Origin: Rhodospirillaceae bacterium
GTDB lineage: Bacteria; Pseudomonadota; Alphaproteobacteria; GCA-2731375
Assembly (NCBI GenBank): GCA_018660265.1
Contig: JABJKS010000080.1
Coordinates: forward strand, 1-33,871
Direction: 5' to 3'
DNA: 33,871 nt
Shown here: piece by piece, positions 1 to 21,652 of the stretch
Position numbering within the stretch: the first letter of the stretch is position 1
How the letters are laid out: every line of letters begins with the position of its first letter
Notes under the pieces: model-generated
Seen by the model: the letters and a program-made list of their open reading frames with translations, nothing else
What the model was told of the DNA's origin: nothing
Database searches by the model: none
Position numbers and translations under genes: made by a program

Positions 1-1271
1 CCGCCGCGATCCGCTGGTGTCGTCGCATTCTGGGCGATGGACACGCCGTCCGTGCTCGTCGCTGCGTCAAAGCTCATAACGCCGTTCGTCAGGGCCAAGG
101 TCGCGCCAGTTACATTGGCATTCACCGCCGTGATGACATCCTGCACAGTGACGAAGCCACCACCGTCGAAATCGACTTCGTAGGAATCGGTCAACAGATT
201 TGCACTATCGAGAATGCCGAACGTGACCTTGCCCGTGAAACCGTGGGCATCGGTTGCCAACACGCCCACATTCCGCCCCGTCAGCGTATTTGGTGGCGGG
301 ACGGCGCTGTTTTCGTTGTGGACCTTATTGATCTGATCGATAAATTTGGCCGATAATTCCCCCAGCGACAGGGCGATTTCAGGTAATTCCTTGTCCCGCA
401 TATCCACCAGCCCTTTTAGGGTGCCGGCGCGTAAATTAGGCTCCAATGCGACGCCGGTAGCTTGTGGCTGGCCGGTTGTGGTATCGATTTGATGCACTGT
501 GATAGAATTAAAGACAACCGTGGTTTCCACCTGGCCTGGGGCATTGTATTGCACCACACGCAGGCGATCATCAACAAGGGAGAGGCCTGAAATTGTGGAA
601 ATATCAATCTTGAAATTAGGCTTTTCCGTCGCTCGAATATCGACAATGTCGCTGACTTCCTCGATGGCACGGGCCCGCTGCTCTTCCAAAGCCGCAGGAT
701 TGCCGCCAGATTCCTTTTGTTGGGAGATCAACGTGTTGAGGCTGTGGATCTGAGCCAGGGCATTATTAAGAACCGAAATTTCAGCGGTGATCCCGGCATC
801 GGCCTCGCTACGCAGGGAGAGGATCTGGCGGCTATAGCGATCAAATGAGTCTGCCACATTCTGAATATCGCTCACCAGACCAATACGTCGCGGCGCTTGG
901 GTTGGATCGGTCGCCAGGGAGGCAAAGGGCTCAAACATTCCATCGATCTGTTGGTTCAATGACGAGGCATCGTCCGGGCTGCCGAAGAGGGATGACAAGC
1001 GATCAAACAGAACCGTCTGCTTATCGTAATAGCCATGATAGGCCGACGCACCGATCAGTTCCTTGGTCAGGAACTTATCGACAATGCGCCGAACTTCACC
1101 AATTTCCACACCTTGCGACTGACCACCCGCAGATGCAGTCTGCAGGATGACTTCCTGGCGGGCATAGCCTTCCGTATTCACGTTGGCAATATTCTGTGAC
1201 GTGACCCGCAGGGCTGATTGGTTGGTGTTCAGTCCACTCAGGGCTGTACGGAGAATGGCGTCCAAAGACAT
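1..1271 (-). CDS. flgK: Flagellar hook-associated protein 1 FlgK (3' part beyond the window)
   Basis: FlgK is the first hook-filament junction protein; it is exported through the flagellar type III apparatus and sits on the finished hook. Reading leftwards from ATG at 1271, the protein opens with an N-terminal flagellar rod/hook signature: MSLDAILRTALSGLNTNQSA followed by SQNIANVNTEGYARQEV. The next 420 or so residues fit FlgK: long helical stretches and a LVDMRDKELPEI segment, as in other FlgK proteins. The C terminus is cut by the window edge. A strong Shine-Dalgarno (GGGAGG) lies 9 bases before the ATG. The 5' leader is about 250 bases long and begins at a sigma-54-type promoter, so the gene is probably a late flagellar gene activated by FlbD. 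The open reading frame has no internal stop. Confidence 0.93.
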   Translation of the reverse strand, partial: MSLDAILRTALSGLNTNQSALRVTSQNIANVNTEGYARQEVILQTASAGGQSQGVEIGEVRRIVDKFLTKELIGASAYHGYYDKQTVLFDRLSSLFGSPDDASSLNQQIDGMFEPFASLATDPTQAPRRIGLVSDIQNVADSFDRYSRQILSLRSEADAGITAEISVLNNALAQIHSLNTLISQQKESGGNPAALEEQRARAIEEVSDIVDIRATEKPNFKIDISTISGLSLVDDRLRVVQYNAPGQVETTVVFNSITVHQIDTTTGQPQATGVALEPNLRAGTLKGLVDMRDKELPEIALSLGELSAKFIDQINKVHNENSAVPPPNTLTGRNVGVLATDAHGFTGKVTFGILDSANLLTDSYEVDFDGGGFVTVQDVITAVNANVTGATLALTNGVMSFDAATSTDGVSIAQNATTPADRG

Positions 1272-1537
1272 GAGCCGTTACCTCCCCATCGCCAGGAACA
1301 AGGAAGGTATTGCACGTCCACAGCGACTAAATTTTCTGGTTCGAGCAACTTGAAAGGCAGAATTTGCCTCCAAGACAGCCCTGACAGCGCTTTTGGGAAA
1401 AATATGCCGATCACAAGCGGTTACCCACACATTTCGCTTTATGGCGGTAACTATTTGTTTCGACTTAGTTTTTCTGGTATGTGACACGTTGCACTTCCTA
1501 ATAACTGGCTACGTTGCGTTATCTCTACACACAACTA

Positions 1538-1553
1538 TGCAAACCTGATGCCA
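1538..1553 (-). promoter_or_regulatory. Sigma-54 (-24/-12) promoter for flgK
   Basis: On the minus strand the sequence reads TGGCATCAGGTTTGCA, which matches the sigma-54 consensus TGGCACGN4TTGCA at nearly every position and has the exact GG-N10-GC spacing. It points towards flgK; transcription would begin near 1527, about 255 bases before the flgK ATG. A sigma-54 activator of the FlbD type is encoded in the same window, which fits the known class III control of flagellar genes in alphaproteobacteria. The assignment rests on motif and spacing only. Confidence 0.7.
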
Positions 1554-1613
1554 AGTCTGTCGCAATATTGTCGCCCGGTCCGCAGGGCGTTCAGTGAACG
1601 TACCGTCAAGGGC

Positions 1614-1643
1614 AAAAAAAACGCCCGGGCGAACCGGGCGTTT
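1614..1643 (-). terminator. Rho-independent terminator of the Sel1-repeat gene
   Basis: A perfect 10-bp stem (AAACGCCCGG / CCGGGCGTTT, loop of 5) is followed on the minus strand by an uninterrupted run of T (the A run at 1614-1620). It lies about 110 bases beyond the stop of the leftward Sel1-repeat gene and before the flgK promoter, so it separates the two transcription units. Confidence 0.8.
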
Positions 1644-1754
1644 CCATAAACCTGCAGTGATCTAAGTCTCTAATCTATCGTTCTTGGTCTATCTTCAAGG
1701 ACTTTCCTTGAATGGCGGCAAGATCTTTCCGCCTGGCGCAAGGCAGTCAAAATT

Positions 1755-2447
1755 CTAGCGCGTTGCTTTAGCCGATGCTTCTTCCAACTGTTTCAGCGTC
1801 TTCATTGCAGGTTCATGGTTTTGACCCGCTGCCGCTTGCAAAAGACTGACAGCCCGCTCTACATCCCTCTCAACCCCTTTGCCATCCATTAACAGAATTG
1901 CCAGGTTAAATTGCGCCGGCGCAAGTCCCGCATCAGAGGCAAGCTCATAGAGTTGCGAAGCCTTGGCTTCGTCCTGGGGCAGGCCAACGCCGTTTTCCCA
2001 CATCACACCAAGATTAAAGGTTGCTACGATATAGCCAGCCTCAGCCGCAGCAGAATAAAGCTCTACCGCTCTGGCGAAATCCTGGGTCACGCCCTCGCCC
2101 CGCTCGTACAGGCCCGCCAGATTGCACATAGCCGGCACATGCTTCTTATCGGCGGCACGGGTGTACCAATAAGCGGCCTCGGGCACATCCTCTTCAACGC
2201 CCAGGCCGATACCGTAAAGCACGCCGAGGCTATATTCTGCTTCCGTATGGCCACGATTGGCGGCCTTCATAAAATGGTCATGGGCTGCCAGAAAATCTTT
2301 CTTTATGCCTTCGCCCCGGCTGTGAATCTGACCAAGAAGAAACTCCGCTTCTGTGTCGCCTTCTTCCGCCGCCTGGCGCCAACCTTCCATGGCGGCCGCA
2401 TAATTGCCATGTTCAAAATGGTCGTTCGCATTTTCCAATATCGACAT
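1755..2447 (-). CDS. Sel1-like repeat (tetratricopeptide-type) protein
   Basis: A 230-residue protein made almost wholly of Sel1-like repeats. At least five consecutive units of about 36 residues can be read, each with the pattern A..LG.LY..G.GV..D...A..WY..AA..G (for example around GRGEGIKKD-, GIGLGVEED-, ERGEGVTQD-, ENGVGLPQD- and MDGKGVERD-like turns). Such proteins form alpha-solenoids that act as protein-interaction scaffolds. No signal peptide or membrane segment is visible, so it is probably cytoplasmic. The gene is divergent from fliK and ends at its own terminator. Its position inside a flagellar locus hints at a role in flagellar or polar assembly, but nothing in the sequence proves this. 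Confidence 0.85.
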   Translation of the reverse strand: MSILENANDHFEHGNYAAAMEGWRQAAEEGDTEAEFLLGQIHSRGEGIKKDFLAAHDHFMKAANRGHTEAEYSLGVLYGIGLGVEEDVPEAAYWYTRAADKKHVPAMCNLAGLYERGEGVTQDFARAVELYSAAAEAGYIVATFNLGVMWENGVGLPQDEAKASQLYELASDAGLAPAQFNLAILLMDGKGVERDVERAVSLLQAAAGQNHEPAMKTLKQLEEASAKATR

Positions 2448-2550
2448 CTGCTCTGCCTCTTGCTTCCATCTGTACTGCGCCGATCACGAAGCTGCCAACC
2501 GGCATGCCACAGCCCGGCGAACGGCGGATCGCGCCATTCACATATTCAAG

Positions 2551-2748
2551 CTATATACCGCCGCCTTTTAAGAAACCGTTAACGACGTTTACCCCATGGG
2601 CGTGCGTCTGTGGGGCTGGGAATATATCCAAGGAAGGCGGCAAAAGACGCCGGGCAGGGCGGCAGGTTTTACCGCCAATGACCGGATTTACCTGGCTGGT
2701 CAAATCGCGGATTTCGCGAATTTGCCGTAGAGTCAAAGGCTTAGCCAT
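2551..2748 (-). CDS. Possible small protein of unknown function upstream of the Sel1-repeat gene
   Basis: A 65-codon frame begins with ATG at 2748 and reads MAKPLTLRQIREIRDLTSQV near its start, which looks protein-like (amphipathic helix). The rest is rich in proline, glycine and arginine and resembles nothing I know. It is leftward, like the Sel1-repeat gene that follows 100 bases later. There is no convincing Shine-Dalgarno, and the CtrA box at 2568-2583 lies inside it, so it may equally be chance coding in a regulatory region. Confidence 0.22.
   Translation of the reverse strand: MAKPLTLRQIREIRDLTSQVNPVIGGKTCRPARRLLPPSLDIFPAPQTHAHGVNVVNGFLKGGGI
2568..2583. promoter_or_regulatory. CtrA-binding box upstream of fliK
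   Basis: TTAA-GAAACCG-TTAAC is an exact match to the alphaproteobacterial CtrA consensus TTAA-N7-TTAA(C). It lies in the divergent region between the Sel1-repeat gene (start 2447) and fliK (start 2818), about 235 bases before fliK. CtrA activates early and middle flagellar genes in this class. The rest of the 370-base gap shows no other clear signal. Confidence 0.6.
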
Positions 2749-2817
2749 TTTGCCAGAGTTGGCCCGTTATTTGCTTCTATCCGGGTGGTACCAACCGCAA
2801 ATCGGAAGCAAACGCTC

Positions 2818-4713
2818 ATGAATTTCAATATCGCCAACCTCGGCTCTCTTCCCAACGATTATATGGGGCCCCCCAGCCAGCAGCTGGATATCTCCCGCCT
2901 GTGCTCTGTGGACGAAGATGGGTTCGCCCATATTCTGCGCAACGAAGGCAAGCGTGATGAGCAGGCCAGTTTTGAAGCCAAGGACCGTGACGCAAGTGAA
3001 GCGCGCGAAGGTATCGAACAGTCTGACAACCGGGACAGCGAAGCAGATCGCCGAATTAACGCGAAGCAGGAAGAGCAAGATAGCCGGGACGAGAAAAATC
3101 GCGAACGCGATGGCGAGGACAGCGACAACCAATCGAATTCCGAAGATGGTCGGGATGATACCACTGAGGATACCGATCTACGGGCCGCGCAGGGCGACGG
3201 GCACGAAAGCGGCCTGCAAGCCGATCCTCTACAATTTATCCGTGATCAACAAGCAGCCGCACAAGAAGCAGCCGGGCCGGCGGCTCAACCTGGCAATTCG
3301 CAGGCGGATGCCAATCCGCATCGCCAGGACGCCCCAGGGCAACAGACAGTTGCTGTCGATGATATCACTGATGTTACGAATGGTATAAACGGCGTCGGCA
3401 ACGCCAATGGCGAACAGACTGCGGACGCCGCCCGCATGGCCGCCGCCGCGGCCATGAACCAAAACAAGGCGGCAGAGGTCTTAACAAATCTTGTCAGTCA
3501 AGGCCGCCCCAATGGCGCGGCTGGATTGCAACCCGGTCTACCGGGCCTACCGGGCAATGCGGACCCCTTGGCCAACGGGACCTTGCCTGAACCTTTGATG
3601 GGTAAACTAAATGCGGGTAATATACCAGGTGAGGCCACTGCTGATGCTGCCAAAGACAAAAGCCTGAAGTATGCCCAGCAAATTCAACTCCAAGCCGCCC
3701 AACCCAACACGCCAAATTTACGAGGCGGTCGCCCCCAACATGGCGGCGGTTTTATGGCTGATACTCTACCTCGTCCACAGACGGCACAATCTCCTCTGGC
3801 GAACGCCTTTGGCCGGCCCTTGGCAGAAAATATGCCGCCCCAGCAACCGGGACAACAAGGCCTGGCAGCTCAACCTGTCGGCGGCCCGGCGGCTAACGCG
3901 GCAAATATCGCCGGCAGCAACGGCCCGGATAGTCAGAGCGGTGTTCAGAATTTACAGCTTTCCGTCTCGCCTGCGCAGACTGGAAAAGCAGACCTGCCCA
4001 CCCTATCAACCCGATCCGAGATGGCAGCCGCATCTGCGGGAACAACAGCTGTCAATGCCCCGGTACAGACGTCCGCGATCCCACAGACCCAAGCCAACCT
4101 GGCTATGGACGGCGAAGTTCCGGCCAAGTTGCCGCCCATGGCTGAAGATACGGTCAAGGCAACCAACAGTAATTCAAACAGTGCAACGGCGACATCAACA
4201 GCCAGTGCCAATGGAACCACCGACACCAAGGGTGCAGCAACCGTACAACAGAGTGTGACGTCCGATGTACGGAGCCCCGCCATTCAGGTCTCCATGCAAT
4301 TGTCCAAGGCCTTGCAGAATGGTTTGGACAAAATGACCATCCGCCTGGACCCGGTGGAACTGGGACGGGTCGATGTGAAACTGGAAATTGGTCATGACGG
4401 TCGTGTCCTGGCCCTGGTTGCAGCTGATCGGCCCGAGACCCTGGACCTTTTGAAGCAGGATTCCCGCTCGCTGGAGAAGGCGCTACAGGATGCCGGCCTG
4501 GAAACGGATGAGAATAGTCTGGACTTCTCCCTCGGCCATGGTGGTGAGCAGGGCGGTGCCCTGGCCGACAACGGCAAAGATGATGAGAACGGCAAGGGTA
4601 ATAGAAACGCATCCGGCAACGGAGCAAGTGAAAACGATGGCGTGGAGGTAACCGGCGATGACGAAGTTCTGCCGCAAGTGACCTCCAACCGCGCCCTCGA
4701 TATCAGTGTATAG
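2818..4713 (+). CDS. fliK: Flagellar hook-length control protein FliK
   Basis: FliK is the secreted molecular ruler that measures the hook and switches the export apparatus from hook to filament substrates. The 631-residue protein has the expected layout: a long low-complexity, charged then Q/A/P/N-rich N-terminal region, and a conserved C-terminal globular domain (about residues 490-573) with the signature MTIRLDPVELGRVDVKLEIG and a RPETLDLLKQDSRSLEKAL helix. An acidic, glycine-rich tail follows. I chose ATG 2818 because GGAAG lies about 10 bases upstream; an in-frame GTG at 2785 has no ribosome site. It is followed 14 bases later by the flgD-flgE frame, which has its own strong GGGAGGAA, so the two genes form one operon downstream of the CtrA box. 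Confidence 0.88.
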   Translation: MNFNIANLGSLPNDYMGPPSQQLDISRLCSVDEDGFAHILRNEGKRDEQASFEAKDRDASEAREGIEQSDNRDSEADRRINAKQEEQDSRDEKNRERDGEDSDNQSNSEDGRDDTTEDTDLRAAQGDGHESGLQADPLQFIRDQQAAAQEAAGPAAQPGNSQADANPHRQDAPGQQTVAVDDITDVTNGINGVGNANGEQTADAARMAAAAAMNQNKAAEVLTNLVSQGRPNGAAGLQPGLPGLPGNADPLANGTLPEPLMGKLNAGNIPGEATADAAKDKSLKYAQQIQLQAAQPNTPNLRGGRPQHGGGFMADTLPRPQTAQSPLANAFGRPLAENMPPQQPGQQGLAAQPVGGPAANAANIAGSNGPDSQSGVQNLQLSVSPAQTGKADLPTLSTRSEMAAASAGTTAVNAPVQTSAIPQTQANLAMDGEVPAKLPPMAEDTVKATNSNSNSATATSTASANGTTDTKGAATVQQSVTSDVRSPAIQVSMQLSKALQNGLDKMTIRLDPVELGRVDVKLEIGHDGRVLALVAADRPETLDLLKQDSRSLEKALQDAGLETDENSLDFSLGHGGEQGGALADNGKDDENGKGNRNASGNGASENDGVEVTGDDEVLPQVTSNRALDISV

Positions 4714-4727
4714 GGAGGAATAGTAAG

Positions 4728-6413
4728 ATGGACTTTTCAGCAATCGCAGCAGCCACCGGCGTCCCGCCGGCCACGGCCTCGGGCGTCGCAGATGCCAAAC
4801 TGGCGGACAATTTTGACACCTTCCTCACGCTGTTAACCGCACAGTTGGAGCATCAGGATCCATTGGAACCCATGGACGCCAACCAGTTTACGGATCAGTT
4901 GGTTCAGTTCACCGAGGTGGAACAATCAATCGCAGCCAACAAGAACCTGGAGAAACTTCTGGCCTTGGTCGGAACAAACTCTACGGCTGACGCTGTCTCG
5001 TACTTGGGTAAAACCGTTGAAGCTGTCGGTAGGACCACGTCTTTGACCAGCGGTAAAGCGGACTGGCGTTATCACCTGCCGGAGACGGCCGAGAGCACCA
5101 CCGTCACAATCACCAATGCCGCCGGCAAGCTGGTTTATTCCACCGAAGGTGAAGTTGCGGCGGGGAACATCACCAACGTGAACACCATTGGCTATAAGAC
5201 CACACGGGCAGCGTTCAGTACCCTGGTCACCAATAGTGGCTCTGCAACGAAATATTCACCAGGCGGTGTCAGCTCATCACCACAAGGTTTGATTGACCGT
5301 CAGGGCCTGTTACAGGCTTCGACCTCGCCGACCGACCTGGCTGTGACGGGTCAAGGCTTCTTCGTCGTCAATACAGACCAAGTTCCGACGTCGACGACGG
5401 GCGCATATCTTTATACCCGGGCCGGCTCTTTCTCCGCCGATTCCAATGGCTATCTTAGGAACACGGGTGGCTACTATGCCCAGGGTTACCCCTACGATAC
5501 CAACGGCAACCTGCCTTCCAACCGTGCCCTCGGTTCCCTGGAAACTGTAAACATCAGTAATCTGACGGGTACAGCAGCAGCCACGACATCCTTGTCACTG
5601 TCCGCCAACTTGAATTCGGACACGGCCACTAAAGCCTATACCTTTGGCAACATGTCAGCGGGCACAACGACGCCGGACTTTGAACGTTCCGTCCAAGTAA
5701 TCGATTCGAAGGGCGGTGTTCGTGCGCTTACGTTCGGCTTTGTCCGCAACAATGCCCTGGCCGCCAACCAATGGTCGGTGGAGATCTATGCCAACCCTGC
5801 CACTGATGTGACCAATACCAATGGCTTGTTAAATGCCGTTGGCACATCCCTACTGGCCTTCAACACTGACGGCACTGTCGACACGGCCACTTCCAATTTA
5901 CCTGCTTCCCTGTCGATTACGACCTGGGCAGCAGCATTGGGCGTTGCCAATTCCACCATCGCCCTTGATTTCGGCACTAACAGCCAGGCCGATGGTATGA
6001 CGCAGTTTTCAACGCCGTCAAATCTAATCTCCTCCGAAACCAACGGCGCGGTCTTTGGTGCCCTAACCGGCGTCAGTGTCTCTGAAGAAGGTGTGGTTAC
6101 TGCGCTGTTCGACAACGGCACGCGAAAAGATATCTACAAGATGCCTCTGGCCTTGTTCCCCAACGTCAATGGCTTGGAAGGCACCACAGGCAATGCCTAT
6201 ATCGCCGCCATCGCAGCGGGCGATTTGACCTTGCAGGAAGCCACAACCGGTGGTGCCGGACTGGTCTCGGCATCGACGCTGGAGGCCTCAACCGTGGATT
6301 TGGCGGAAGAGTTCTCCATTATGATCCAAACCCAACAAGCTTATTCGGCATCGGCGCGAATTATTACAACAGCCGACGAGATGCTGGATGAGTTGATCCG
6401 ACTAGCTAGATAA
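4728..6413 (+). CDS. FlgD-FlgE in-frame fusion (hook cap N-terminus joined to hook protein lacking its N-terminus)
   Basis: One uninterrupted 561-codon frame contains parts of two flagellar proteins. Residues 1 to about 146 are FlgD, the hook-cap scaffold: DNFDTFLTLLTAQLEHQDPL, then MDANQFTDQLVQFTEVEQS, then the start of the FlgD beta domain ending at KLVYSTEGEVAAG. From residue 147 the sequence is FlgE, the hook subunit: NITNVNTIGYKTTRAAFSTL through to a normal C-terminus with EEFSIMIQTQQAYSASARII and DEMLDELIRLAR. Missing are roughly the last 80 residues of FlgD (rest of the Tudor/FnIII-like part), its stop, the intergenic gap and about the first 30 residues of FlgE, which form the D0 helix and export signal. 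The junction is near 5163-5168. Known biology predicts that such a fusion would not build a normal hook. It could be a genuine deletion or an assembly collapse. Confidence 0.88.
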   Translation: MDFSAIAAATGVPPATASGVADAKLADNFDTFLTLLTAQLEHQDPLEPMDANQFTDQLVQFTEVEQSIAANKNLEKLLALVGTNSTADAVSYLGKTVEAVGRTTSLTSGKADWRYHLPETAESTTVTITNAAGKLVYSTEGEVAAGNITNVNTIGYKTTRAAFSTLVTNSGSATKYSPGGVSSSPQGLIDRQGLLQASTSPTDLAVTGQGFFVVNTDQVPTSTTGAYLYTRAGSFSADSNGYLRNTGGYYAQGYPYDTNGNLPSNRALGSLETVNISNLTGTAAATTSLSLSANLNSDTATKAYTFGNMSAGTTTPDFERSVQVIDSKGGVRALTFGFVRNNALAANQWSVEIYANPATDVTNTNGLLNAVGTSLLAFNTDGTVDTATSNLPASLSITTWAAALGVANSTIALDFGTNSQADGMTQFSTPSNLISSETNGAVFGALTGVSVSEEGVVTALFDNGTRKDIYKMPLALFPNVNGLEGTTGNAYIAAIAAGDLTLQEATTGGAGLVSASTLEASTVDLAEEFSIMIQTQQAYSASARIITTADEMLDELIRLAR

Positions 6414-11404: not shown

Positions 11405-12214
11405 ATGGCCAGGGCAAAAACAGCAAATCGGCCACGGAATGGAGGCGCTTCGCTTACCACCGTTATTGGTCTATTGGCGGGTTTTGCGCTTATAGCGACG
11501 GCGATGTTTTGGGGTGGCTCACCATCTTCGTTTTTTGACGGACCGGCATTGTTGATCGTCTTCGGCGGCACCTTTGCCGTCACCTTGGCTTCGTTTTCAT
11601 TCTCTGATGTCGCCCGCGCGGGTGGTGCCATCGGTCAGGCCATCGTCCATCAAAGCCACGACCCCAGTCATGCCGCCTATCAAGTCGTCGAATTGGCGGA
11701 AAAGGCCCGCAGCGATGGTGTTCTGGGTCTGCAGGACGGCTTGGTCAAATTAAAGTCGGAGCCGTTCCTGATGAAAGCCATTGCTTTGGTCGTGGACGGC
11801 ACACCGGGTGAAGTCGTTGAGGGCATTTTGCGCCGCGAAGTCGCGACAAACGCCAGCCGGCAACAGACTTCGGCGGATGTATTCCGTAAGGCGGCCGAAG
11901 TTTCCCCGGCCATGGGGTTGATCGGTACTTTGGTTGGCCTGGTGCAAATGCTGGGTAATTTGAATGACCCCACGACCATCGGCCCGGCCATGGCCATCGC
12001 CCTTTTGACCACCTTCTACGGCGCTGTCCTTGCCAATATGGTGTTCAACCCGTTGGCGACCAAATTGGAACGTTCCAGCGATGGCGAGGTTCTGGTGCAC
12101 AACGTCTATTTAACCGGCGCGGCCTCCATCGGGCGGCAGGAAAGCCCACGTCGGCTGGAAATGCTGCTCAACGCCATGCTGCCGCCAACCCACCGTATTC
12201 AATACTTTGACTAA
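11405..12214 (+). CDS. motA: MotA/PomA-type flagellar stator channel protein
   Basis: MotA-family proteins form, with MotB, the ion-driven stator that turns the rotor. This 269-residue protein has four predicted membrane segments (near 18-37, 45-62, 167-185 and 195-215), a cytoplasmic loop containing ARSDGVLGLQ like PomA/MotP, and the two family prolines in SPAMGLIGT (Pro168) and FNPLATKL (Pro216), which correspond to Pro173 and Pro222 of E. coli MotA. It is closer in size to PomA than to enteric MotA. No motB follows; flbD comes next, so the MotB partner must be encoded elsewhere. TolQ/ExbB relatives are less likely because of the operon context and the PomA-like loop. Confidence 0.85.
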   Translation: MARAKTANRPRNGGASLTTVIGLLAGFALIATAMFWGGSPSSFFDGPALLIVFGGTFAVTLASFSFSDVARAGGAIGQAIVHQSHDPSHAAYQVVELAEKARSDGVLGLQDGLVKLKSEPFLMKAIALVVDGTPGEVVEGILRREVATNASRQQTSADVFRKAAEVSPAMGLIGTLVGLVQMLGNLNDPTTIGPAMAIALLTTFYGAVLANMVFNPLATKLERSSDGEVLVHNVYLTGAASIGRQESPRRLEMLLNAMLPPTHRIQYFD

Positions 12215-12235
12215 GCAAGACCTGGAGTTCCAACG

Positions 12236-13657: not shown

Positions 13658-15832
13658 ATGAGCGATACACCCACAGACGGTGGCGCCCCGGGGCTGCCCG
13701 CAACAGGCGGAGCCAGCGCGGAGGTAGGACCAGAGGGAGGCACGCCAGGCACTGATTACAGTGCCATGACCATGGGCTTCCTCAACCACATGCGCCAGGG
13801 CGACATTGCCTTGGCCCTGGGCGTATCGACTATTCTTGTCATTCTGATTTTGCCATTGCCCAGTTGGCTGTTGGATGGGGCATTGGCCATTTCCATCACA
13901 TTTTCCGTGATGATCATGATGACCTGTCTGTTTATCGCGCGGCCGCTTGAATTCTCCTCATTTCCGACGGTCTTGCTTATCGCGACAATGCTGCGGCTAT
14001 CCCTCAACCTGGCATCGACCCGGCTGATCCTGTCCGAAGGCCACGAGGGCACGCATGCTGCCGGGCGGGTCATTGAAGCATTCGGCAATTTCGTCATGGG
14101 CGGTAACTTTGTTATCGGCGTCATTGTTTTTTCCATTCTGATCATTGTGAACTTCATCGTCATCACCAAGGGCTCGGGCCGGATCGCCGAAGTGGCCGCC
14201 AGGTTTAGCCTGGATGCCATGCCCGGCAAACAGATGGCCATTGATGCGGATCTGTCTGCCGGTCTGATCAATGAAGATGATGCCCGTCTGCGCCGCCAGA
14301 CGCTGGAGGACGAAAGCACCTTCTTCGGTGCCATGGACGGTGCGGCAAAATTTGTCCGCGGCGATGCGATCGCGGGGCTATTGATCACATTCATCAATGT
14401 CATCGGCGGCATTATCGTCGGTGTGGCGCAGAACGGTCTGAGTTTCGCGCAAGCAACGGAATCTTATACCTTGCTGACGGTTGGCGATGGCCTTGTATCG
14501 CAAATTCCAGCCCTGATCGTCTCTACTGCATCAGGCCTTTTGGTCTCCAAGGCCGGTGTTGTCGGCTCCACCGATAAGGCACTCTTTGGGCAATTGTCCG
14601 GTTACCCAAAGGCGATGGGGCTGGTCAGTTTTCTGCTGCTCTGCCTCTCGCTGCTGCCCGGCTTGCCGATGATACCGTTCCTGCTCCTGTCCATCATCAC
14701 GGGCGTGATCACCTATCGCATGTACCGAAAGAATGTTGACGCCGTGACACAGGCGGCAGACGTCGCCCAGCAGGAAATTGCTGATGCCCCGGAAGTCGAG
14801 GAGCCAATTTCCACGGCACTGCTGATTGATGAGCTGCGTATAGAACTGGGCTATGGCCTGCTGTCCTTGATCAACGATAGTCGCGGTCATCGTTTGACCG
14901 ACCAGATCAAAGCCCTGCGTCGGCAGATCGCAGGCGATATGGGCTTCATCATGCCTTCGGTCCGGATCCTTGATAATATGCAATTGCCGGCCAGCAGTTA
15001 TGCCGTCCGTATCAAGGAGGTCGAGGCGGGGCGCGGGGATCTGCGCCCGGACAAGCTGCTGATCATGGATCCCCAGGGCGGCAGCATTGATATTCAGGGC
15101 GAGGCCACCACCGAGCCGACCTTTGGCCTACCCGCCATGTGGGTTGACGAGTCTTTGCGGGAAGAGGCCAGTTTCCGTGGCTATACCGTGGTCGACCCGC
15201 CCACCGTGGTCACAACCCATTTGACGGAAGTTTTGCGGGATAATATGGCGGATCTACTGTCCTATGCCGCAACCCAGAGATTGCTTGACGATCTACCCCG
15301 CGAACACCACAAGCTGGTGGAAGATGTGGTCCCGGCGCAATTGTCCGTTACGGCTGTGCAGCGGGTTCTACAACGGCTGTTGTCCGAACGTATCTCTATC
15401 CGTGATCTGCCGACAATTCTTGAAGGCATTGCCGAGGCCGTCGGCTTTACCCAGAATGTGGTACAGATCGCCGAACATGTACGTGCCCGCCTGGCCCGCC
15501 AGATCAGCCATGCCTCGACCTCCATGAATGGCTATATCCCGCTGGTGCCCCTGTCACCGGAATGGGAGCAGGAATTTGCCGAGGCCATCGTTGGTCAGGG
15601 CGACGATATGCAGCTGGCCATGGCCCCCACAAAATTGCAGGAATTCATCGGCCGCGTCCGCGAAGTCTTCGACGAGCTGGTACAACAGGGCGAAATTCCA
15701 GTCTTGTTGACCTCACCCGCAGCCCGCCCCTACGTCCGTTCCATAATCGAACGCGTGCGGCCAATGACACCCGTGCTATCCCAGAATGAAATCCATCCAA
15801 GTGCCAAAATTCGCACCTTGGCGCAAATCTAG
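13658..15832 (+). CDS. flhA: Flagellar export gate protein FlhA
   Basis: FlhA is the large inner-membrane gate of the flagellar type III export apparatus; its cytoplasmic ring receives substrates and chaperones. The 724-residue protein has a glycine-rich N-terminus, about eight membrane helices in the first 345 residues, the conserved family (FHIPEP) block SRLTITKGS-like GSGRIAEVAARFSLDAMPGK, followed by DADLSAGLI and GDAIAGLLITFINVIGG, and a cytoplasmic domain that includes TTHLTEVLRDNMADLLSYA and the C-terminal ARPYVRSIIER segment. Length is normal (about 690-720). It starts 21 bases after flbD and ends 15 bases before flhF. Confidence 0.97.
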   Translation: MSDTPTDGGAPGLPATGGASAEVGPEGGTPGTDYSAMTMGFLNHMRQGDIALALGVSTILVILILPLPSWLLDGALAISITFSVMIMMTCLFIARPLEFSSFPTVLLIATMLRLSLNLASTRLILSEGHEGTHAAGRVIEAFGNFVMGGNFVIGVIVFSILIIVNFIVITKGSGRIAEVAARFSLDAMPGKQMAIDADLSAGLINEDDARLRRQTLEDESTFFGAMDGAAKFVRGDAIAGLLITFINVIGGIIVGVAQNGLSFAQATESYTLLTVGDGLVSQIPALIVSTASGLLVSKAGVVGSTDKALFGQLSGYPKAMGLVSFLLLCLSLLPGLPMIPFLLLSIITGVITYRMYRKNVDAVTQAADVAQQEIADAPEVEEPISTALLIDELRIELGYGLLSLINDSRGHRLTDQIKALRRQIAGDMGFIMPSVRILDNMQLPASSYAVRIKEVEAGRGDLRPDKLLIMDPQGGSIDIQGEATTEPTFGLPAMWVDESLREEASFRGYTVVDPPTVVTTHLTEVLRDNMADLLSYAATQRLLDDLPREHHKLVEDVVPAQLSVTAVQRVLQRLLSERISIRDLPTILEGIAEAVGFTQNVVQIAEHVRARLARQISHASTSMNGYIPLVPLSPEWEQEFAEAIVGQGDDMQLAMAPTKLQEFIGRVREVFDELVQQGEIPVLLTSPAARPYVRSIIERVRPMTPVLSQNEIHPSAKIRTLAQI

Positions 15833-20278: not shown

Positions 20279-21652
20279 ATGACGACGCGCAACGCACCGC
20301 CAGGTGATAACCGGCCATCCGCTATGTTCTTCTGGCCCACCCCTGAACGCCCCATGGTGGAGCGGGGTGAGGGCATCTATCTGTGGGATCAGGACGGCAA
20401 GCGTTATATCGATGGTTGCTCCGGCCCGCAGACCGCCAATATAGGTCACGGCAACGTGCGGGTGCGCGAGGCGATGGTGGAACAGGCGGAAAAAGTATCC
20501 TACGCCTTTCGTTCGCATTTTCTGAACGAACCTGCGGAGCTGTTGGCCCAAGAGATCATGGATGTAACACCGGATGGCTTTGATCAGGTCTTCTTCGGCT
20601 CGGGCGGCTCGGAAGTTGTGGAGGCTTGTGTGAAACTGGCCCGGCAATACGCCATCGCGACGGGTGAGGCGACCCGCTACAAGGTGATCTCCCGCCTGCC
20701 GTCATACCACGGCACCACCCTCGGCGCGCTGTCTCTGACCGGAGATCCCGCTGGCTTTTCCATGTTCGCACCCATGATGGTGAACCATCCGAAAATTCCG
20801 GCACCATTTTGTCGTTACCGCCGTCCCGGACAATCGGAGGACGAAGCCGCCCTGGAATATGCAAATGCCCTGGAGACGGAGATCGTCAGCCAGGGTGTGG
20901 AAACCGTCCTGGCATTTATCATGGAACCCATCGGTGGGGCCGCTACCGGGGCTCTGACCGCCCCCGATATCTATTATCACCGGATCAGGGAGATCTGTGA
21001 CAAATACGGCGTACTATTGATCTTTGATGAGGTGATGTCAGGCGCGGGGCGCAGCGGCAAGTATCTTTCCGCAGAACATTGGGGTGTGAAGGCGGACCTG
21101 GTTGCCTTGGCCAAGGGATTGGCGTCGGGCTATATCCCCCTGGGGGCCTGTTTGACGTCACGCAAAATTGTTGGCGCGGTGGAGGATGCGGGCGGCTTCA
21201 ATCATGGCCATACCTATTCTGCCTCCCCCATCGCCTGCGCCGTGGGCCGGGCCGTCCTGGCCGAGCATTTGGAGAACGACCTGATCGGCAACGCCGCCCG
21301 TATGGGTGCGATCCTGAAAAGCCGCCTTGAAGGCCTGTTGGAAGAATTCGAATTCATCGGTGAAGTGCGCGGGCGCGGCCTGCTGTTGGGTTTTGACGTT
21401 ATTGCGGACCGGGAAACCGGTCGCCCCCTGCCCCCTGAATTGGACGCGCATGTCCATCTGGCCCAGGAAGCCTATGATCGCGGCCTGATCATCTATTCCC
21501 GGCGCGTGATGGGTGGGGCCCGCGGCGATAACTTCCTGGTCTCGCCCCCCCTGATCGTGACCGAGGATCAAATCGATGAAATCATGGATATATTGATCCA
21601 GGCCCTGCGCGCCTTTGCACCCACCGCCCGCGCCGCTATAAAGGCAGCCTAA
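20279..21652 (+). CDS. Class III PLP-dependent aminotransferase
   Basis: A 457-residue fold-type I aminotransferase of the omega (class III) group, which moves amino groups from amines, beta-alanine or gamma-aminobutyrate-like donors to keto acids. The PLP-binding signature is LLIFDEVMSGAGRSGKYLSA (Asp250) and LVALAKGLASGYIPLG with Lys279 as Schiff-base lysine; VFFGSGGSEVVEACVKLAR binds the phosphate. The substrate cannot be read from sequence. ATG 20279 has GGGAGC upstream. The small monooxygenase gene follows 28 bases later, so the pair is probably one transcript. Confidence 0.92.
   Translation: MTTRNAPPGDNRPSAMFFWPTPERPMVERGEGIYLWDQDGKRYIDGCSGPQTANIGHGNVRVREAMVEQAEKVSYAFRSHFLNEPAELLAQEIMDVTPDGFDQVFFGSGGSEVVEACVKLARQYAIATGEATRYKVISRLPSYHGTTLGALSLTGDPAGFSMFAPMMVNHPKIPAPFCRYRRPGQSEDEAALEYANALETEIVSQGVETVLAFIMEPIGGAATGALTAPDIYYHRIREICDKYGVLLIFDEVMSGAGRSGKYLSAEHWGVKADLVALAKGLASGYIPLGACLTSRKIVGAVEDAGGFNHGHTYSASPIACAVGRAVLAEHLENDLIGNAARMGAILKSRLEGLLEEFEFIGEVRGRGLLLGFDVIADRETGRPLPPELDAHVHLAQEAYDRGLIIYSRRVMGGARGDNFLVSPPLIVTEDQIDEIMDILIQALRAFAPTARAAIKAA

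Follow-up and report, generated by a model that had tools for sequence, protein, structure and literature searches.

The 33,871-nucleotide window analysed here, drawn from a Rhodospirillaceae bacterium (assembly GCA_018660265.1, contig JABJKS010000080.1), contains flagellar genes among which those for the hook-capping protein FlgD and the hook protein FlgE appear as one continuous reading frame. The question raised by this locus is whether the frame encodes a protein that the organism makes, records a deletion in the organism's chromosome, or came into being only when the sequence was assembled. The original prediction described an in-frame joining of FlgD to FlgE in which the adjoining ends of both proteins had been lost, and it named an assembly artefact as its own refutation. 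The description of the frame holds, being borne out by the ORF, by Pfam searches and by alignment to relatives, and yet an artefact is the reading that we find best supported, with a probability of about 0.6, given a bin that resembles the output of a k=141 assembly and contains two other false-looking joins.

Composition of the fused frame

Positions 4728-6413 form a single open frame of 561 amino acids without an internal stop. Sequence comparison confirms its predicted make-up, in which the first 146 residues correspond to FlgD and are followed directly by FlgE from residue 27 of that protein; alignment to four relatives of the same genus puts the switch at 5165/5166, within the interval 5163-5168 proposed earlier, and the FlgE part thus begins at residue 147 (Table 1). 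An RBS-like GGAGG is kept, as are the flgD start and the FlgD N-terminus.

When set against the FlgD hook-capping protein (PF03963 plus PF13860), residues 1-146 align both with FlgD of the genus and with PF03963, which a Pfam scan of the fused protein placed at residues 20-75, so that a FlgD N-terminal domain is clearly present. The frame differs from that protein in that its Ig-like domain is cut at about half of the profile (FlgD_ig positions 8-48 of 79 only, 24.9 bits against a cut-off of 27) and the Ig-like/C-terminal region is incomplete, with 81-86 residues missing relative to the relatives. The comparison with the FlgE hook protein (NF040922, NF004242, PF22692, PF06429) has a similar outcome: residues 147-561 align with FlgE of the genus over 415 residues, and the same scan found the FlgE/F/G D1 domain (PF22692) at residues 205-265 with 37.2 bits and Flg_bbr_C (PF06429) at residues 517-559 with 52 bits, both over their cut-offs, whereas the 26 N-terminal residues are absent and the scores fall below the equivalog cut-offs of NF040922 (349.2 vs 750) and NF004242 (336.9 vs 365). 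The Flg_bb_rod motif, which comprises the start of the D0 helix and the export region, is halved; only its positions 16-31 of 31 are represented, at 14.5 bits in the genome search and 12 bits in the protein scan against a cut-off of 20.7. FlgE_D2 (PF07559) scored 49.5 bits in a six-frame genome search, over its cut-off, but was unlisted in two Pfam protein scans at E values up to 10; the stretch concerned is covered throughout by the alignment to the relatives.

An AlphaFold2 model of the fused protein, built from 8 sequences, had a mean pLDDT of 33.3 and is too poor to use. It should be borne in mind that two coding frames joined at random meet in phase one time in three.

Table 1. Features of the window that bear on the flgD-flgE join
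Feature	Position	Strand	Evidence
Contig-end overlap with contig C119 inside flgK; on C119 the sequence runs on into flhA instead	1..98	-	Exact match to C119:121-218; FlgK by TIGR02492
5' portion of flgD (residues 1-146: capping/export region at the N-terminus plus roughly half of the Ig-like domain)	4728..5165	+	PF03963 71.1 bits; partial FlgD_ig; 62-73% identity to FlgD of four relatives
Join; 400-422 bases of the relatives (flgD 3' end, intergenic stretch, first 26 flgE codons) missing	5165..5166	+	Comparison with four same-genus loci
flgE, codon 27 to the normal stop	5166..6413	+	81-86% identity over 415 residues to FlgE of four relatives; Flg_bbr_C and D1 present
flhA stretch repeated at the tip of C119 (1-123), where it is spliced to flgK with 3 shared bases	13783..13905	+	Sequence match; FHIPEP domain of the ORF
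Repeated sequence at the right contig end	33737..33871	.	129-135 bases recur at the ends of seven further contigs of the bin, and 36 bases in an eighth

The same locus in related genomes

A comparison with close relatives had been proposed as a check, and we searched ten other genomes of the genus (G001-G010). Both flgD and flgE are present in four of these (G002, G003, G005 and G010), and in all four loci they are separate, ordinary genes. The FlgD and FlgE searches gave nothing beyond weak matches of the FlgF/FlgG kind in G001, G006 and G007, and no FlgD or FlgE match was found in G004, G008 and G009. FlgE is 441 residues long from its start in each of the four relatives, with 26 residues preceding an NITN motif in all of them; in the fused protein the residues before NITN are instead the FlgD Ig-like stretch, unlike the N-terminal stretch that the four share. 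Beyond the site of the join, FlgD continues for 81 more residues in G002, 85 in G003 (where the 5' end of flgD is cut by the contig start) and G010, and 86 in G005. The first estimate of about 80 FlgD and about 30 FlgE residues lost was right. The alignments give 403-425 missing bases, and the number in Table 1, of which the lower value is that for G002, is given after deduction of a Gly codon that the window keeps.

The FlgE part of the window contains no further frameshift or stop, and its 81-86% identity to the relatives compares with 81-91% among the relatives themselves; these identities give no sign of relaxed selection on the fused gene, although the test is a weak one at such distances. 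Conservation near the level of the relatives, in a sequence with no additional lesion, implies that the loss is either very young or not real.

The genes around the join are in good order. Thirteen other ORFs between 1911 and 18188, among them those for FliK, FliF, FliG, FliH, FliN, a MotA-family protein, a sigma-54 activator, FlhA and FlhF, are colinear with the relatives and show no disruption of this sort; gaps make the lengths of FliK and FlhF differ, and for FliN and FliH the alignment to some relatives is less complete. Identity between the window and the flagellar region of G005 is 70-81%. Thirteen ORFs to the right of 18188 were also compared, of which five had no match and one had weak paralogue matches only, and these six support no statement. 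The earlier claim that every other flagellar gene is intact thus stands for the ORFs of the window that can be compared with relatives; it does not extend to the bin, as described below.

A wider survey gave no indication of a conserved FlgD-FlgE fusion family, whether among the four same-genus loci, among 16 loci of relatives and class members, or among the FlgD matches listed for 385 genomes sampled from the class. A search of the 16 loci with regular expressions (the G005 locus among them) found no single ORF with both FlgD and hook motifs; the FlgD motif was found in 10 of them, and both motifs, in separate ORFs, in five. FlgD was found in 197 of the 385 class genomes, and among the matches listed the frame of the window (583) is the longest; the next three (523, 453 and 411) contain FlgD without FlgE. 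Neither of two candidates for natural full-length fusions gained support. A single frame length had been reported for flgD plus flgE in G005 and G014 (704 and 741), but translation of the G005 sequence shows two separate ORFs, and in G014 the motif search picked up FlgD only, in an ORF of 276 residues. We found no mention of a FlgD-FlgE fusion by name in the full text of open-licence PMC papers.

Flagellar genes in the rest of the bin

The window is the whole of contig C78 in an assembly of 5.55 Mb and 121 contigs that is rated 97.24% complete and 0.73% contaminated. Separate full-length copies of flgD and flgE, which the original prediction suggested looking for, were not found in this bin. 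The queries for the lost pieces were the entire G002 FlgD and Flg_bb_rod, each at E values up to 10; the FlgD query matched only the window, as did FlgE_D2. Flg_bb_rod matched at five sites besides the remnant in the fused frame, namely FlgK in the window (TIGR02492, 215.9 bits), FlgF on contigs C107 and C28 (TIGR02490), and a frame beside each FlgF which, also from its position, we take to be FlgG. No Flg_bb_rod match in the bin corresponds to FlgB or FlgC, though such small rod frames match in several relatives (FlgC of G010 was confirmed by a family model). A search for FlhB in the bin was likewise negative, and the one contig on which FliM was found is the divergent C28, so that this bin, for all its 97% rated completeness, is without some flagellar genes, through either loss or binning. 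Among the ten other genomes of the genus, three have no rod/hook N-terminal motif at E values up to 0.01.

Contig C28 carries a second flagellar gene set, in which FlgH, FlgF and FliM were confirmed by family models and flgA, flgG and fliL are presumably also present. It is about 72-80% identical to C107 where the two overlap, and contig C68 corresponds by homology to the flgI-bearing side of this cluster in relatives; both C28 and C68 start in sequence common to other contig ends of the bin. This second set represents either a co-binned relative or a second flagellar locus. A search of five same-genus genomes for the source of C28 gave flagellar matches of 69-86% identity and no close source. 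C28 also contains, at 6272-6356, an interspersed repeat of about 85 bases; of five same-genus genomes searched for it, four have numerous copies. On C107, three closely similar flagellin-like genes lie in tandem at 652-4124, the first of which matches flagellin models below their cut-offs.

Assembly marks and other abnormal joins

An overlap of exactly 141 bases is common among the contig ends of the bin; other overlaps are slightly shorter and a few longer, and they frequently involve several contigs together, as repeats do. In two of the relatives the contigs have names beginning with k141_. We infer that the 141-base overlaps are the mark of a final k=141 step in a short-read metagenome assembly, with an assembler of the MEGAHIT kind.

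Two other joins in the bin look false, both at contig ends and both also readable as deletion variants, in a search that concentrated on the flagellar contigs. Contig C119 starts with 120 bases of flhA (window positions 13786-13905) spliced to flgK at window base 98, a deletion-like join that spans 13.7 kb. Together, however, C119 and the window, with their 98-base overlap, span, uninterrupted, a relative's partial FlgK frame (518 residues) that was used as query, and both pieces match FlgK; an ordinary, unspliced flgK path therefore exists too. Contig C107 changes abruptly at the start of flgF, and the 141 bases that end it (12093-12233) are identical to the 3' end of flgC and the bases that follow on contig C32 of G005, which is another bin; flgF and flgC lie about 15 kb apart in G010, in the same order and orientation. 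An exact-k overlap with another bin suggests that both bins derive from one assembly and that the path left its own genome, unless the flgC block on C32 is itself misplaced and belongs to the genome of the window.

The starts of the 121 contigs were compared with other pieces (60 contigs at 400 bases, nearly all the others whole or to 8 kb), and the start of C119 was the only one to match another piece more than about 250 bases from its end, within 519,712 bases of the 5.55 Mb; this is about 9% of the genome, so that most such matches in the remainder would escape notice. Of the ORFs in the C119 and C107 stretches that have a match, most are aligned over the greater part of their length; the C119 frame at 20429-21118 is aligned only in part, and several C119 ORFs have no match.

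Origin of the join

The fused frame is best explained as a join that is either false or not representative, a chimera from assembly or library in a short-read metagenome bin, a reading that we put somewhat above even odds. About 400 bases, from the middle of flgD to flgE codon 27, would have dropped out when the true path gave way to a chimeric or gap-bridging one, with the coding frames on either side meeting in phase by chance. This reading is favoured by the separate genes in all four same-genus genomes with the locus, by the well-conserved FlgE part and the 13 unbroken neighbours, by the 141-base overlaps and contig names, and by the presence in the bin of a divergent second gene set on C28 and C68. 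It is favoured too by the C119 splice, which lies beside an unspliced flgK, and by the C107 end, which is identical to the flgC region of G005; we infer that the join in the window has the same cause as these two. In the excerpted results of one benchmark, megahit produced 22.15 chimeric contigs per genome compared with 2.63 for SPAdes (PMC11261854). Our join resembles the chimeric contigs of short-read metagenome assemblies in its abruptness, its lack of a supporting relative, the 141-base end overlaps and the company of other abnormal joins; it differs in that it is in phase, is confined to a single gene pair, and lies in a contig's interior rather than at its tip.

Several observations sit less easily with a chimera. 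No competing path is kept at 5165, in the interior of the contig, and a chimeric read seldom wins at good coverage. All three abnormal joins keep gene order and orientation, as true deletions would and random chimeras need not, most matched ORFs on C119 and C107 are aligned over most of their length, and C119 stands alone among the contig starts compared. There is also almost no shared word at the two breakpoints in the four relatives. A join driven by a repeat was for this reason rejected: a k-mer repeat did not make it, and some molecule or gap-filling step must have done so.

A tentative alternative, clearly less probable than a chimera, is that a deletion of about 400 bases is real and present in most cells of the population. 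The product would be null, with the FlgD export signals but no FlgD C-terminus and with an FlgE body lacking its N-terminal helix; the cells would be hookless and non-motile, and the flagellum would be in the course of being lost from the lineage. Such a deletion is favoured by a join internal to a contig and by the failure to find the lost FlgD piece elsewhere in the bin, and it fits with the two further deletion-like joins in flagellar genes and with the many contig ends in sequence common to several contigs, as in a repeat-rich genome. Six of the ten same-genus genomes have no FlgD match and FlgE matches that are at most of the weak FlgF/FlgG kind, and the three genomes without the rod/hook motif point the same way. 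The order and orientation kept at the abnormal joins, and the failure to find FlgB, FlgC and FlhB in a bin whose only FliM is on C28, are the reasons why we keep a real, decaying flagellum at roughly one chance in three. Against it, every other flagellar gene of the window that was compared is intact and conserved well, genes that the searches of the bin did not find may simply sit on unbinned contigs, and of the two other deletion-like joins one coexists with the intact gene and the other enters the sequence of a different bin. From the state of the FlgE sequence, a real deletion would have to be very young.

That the fusion is a working protein is very improbable. Such a protein might be a hook subunit that is exported by FlgD signals and polymerizes despite lacking the usual N-terminal helix of FlgE, or a protein that is cap and hook in one; a FlgD-led, FlgE-bodied secreted product, made in the cell and replacing the separate cap and hook in a flagellum that perhaps lacks some rod and export genes, is an idea to which we give almost no weight. 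In the hook, the D0 core is packed by the N-terminal helix of FlgE. In favour of a working protein, the frame is open and its RBS-like site, flgD start and FlgD N-terminus are all in place. The export signals of Salmonella FlgD, as described in the excerpted text of PMC8983047, lie at residues 2-5 and in a gate recognition motif at 36-40; the corresponding region is kept in the fused protein, which by analogy might be exported since it retains the FlgD N-terminus. The same excerpt reports, however, that deletion of residues 9-32 makes export of Salmonella FlgE very poor, and that a linker restoring the spacing rescues it (PMC8983047). Moreover, the first 26 residues of FlgE and the last 81-86 of FlgD are gone and the bin yielded no other FlgD or FlgE, the residues before NITN derive from the FlgD Ig-like stretch and not from FlgE, the fold prediction offers no help, and the arrangement is absent from all relatives examined. 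The view that the fused product is unlikely to build a normal hook was in our judgement right, and absence of a hook would be the likeliest outcome if the frame were real; nothing that we found supports the suggestion of a changed hook mechanism.

Significance

These analyses serve as a warning that in-frame fusions in binned short-read genomes should not be taken as biology without the reads, even where the frame is clean. A working fusion would overturn the idea that a hook subunit requires an N-terminal helix of its own along with a separate cap; as biology, though, the fused frame is most likely not a feature of this organism and not a new kind of hook protein, and the usual flgD-flgE pair of the genus is most likely present in the organism. 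If the deletion is instead real, it would provide a new example of flagellar loss, in a genus of Alphaproteobacteria that is known from marine metagenomes.
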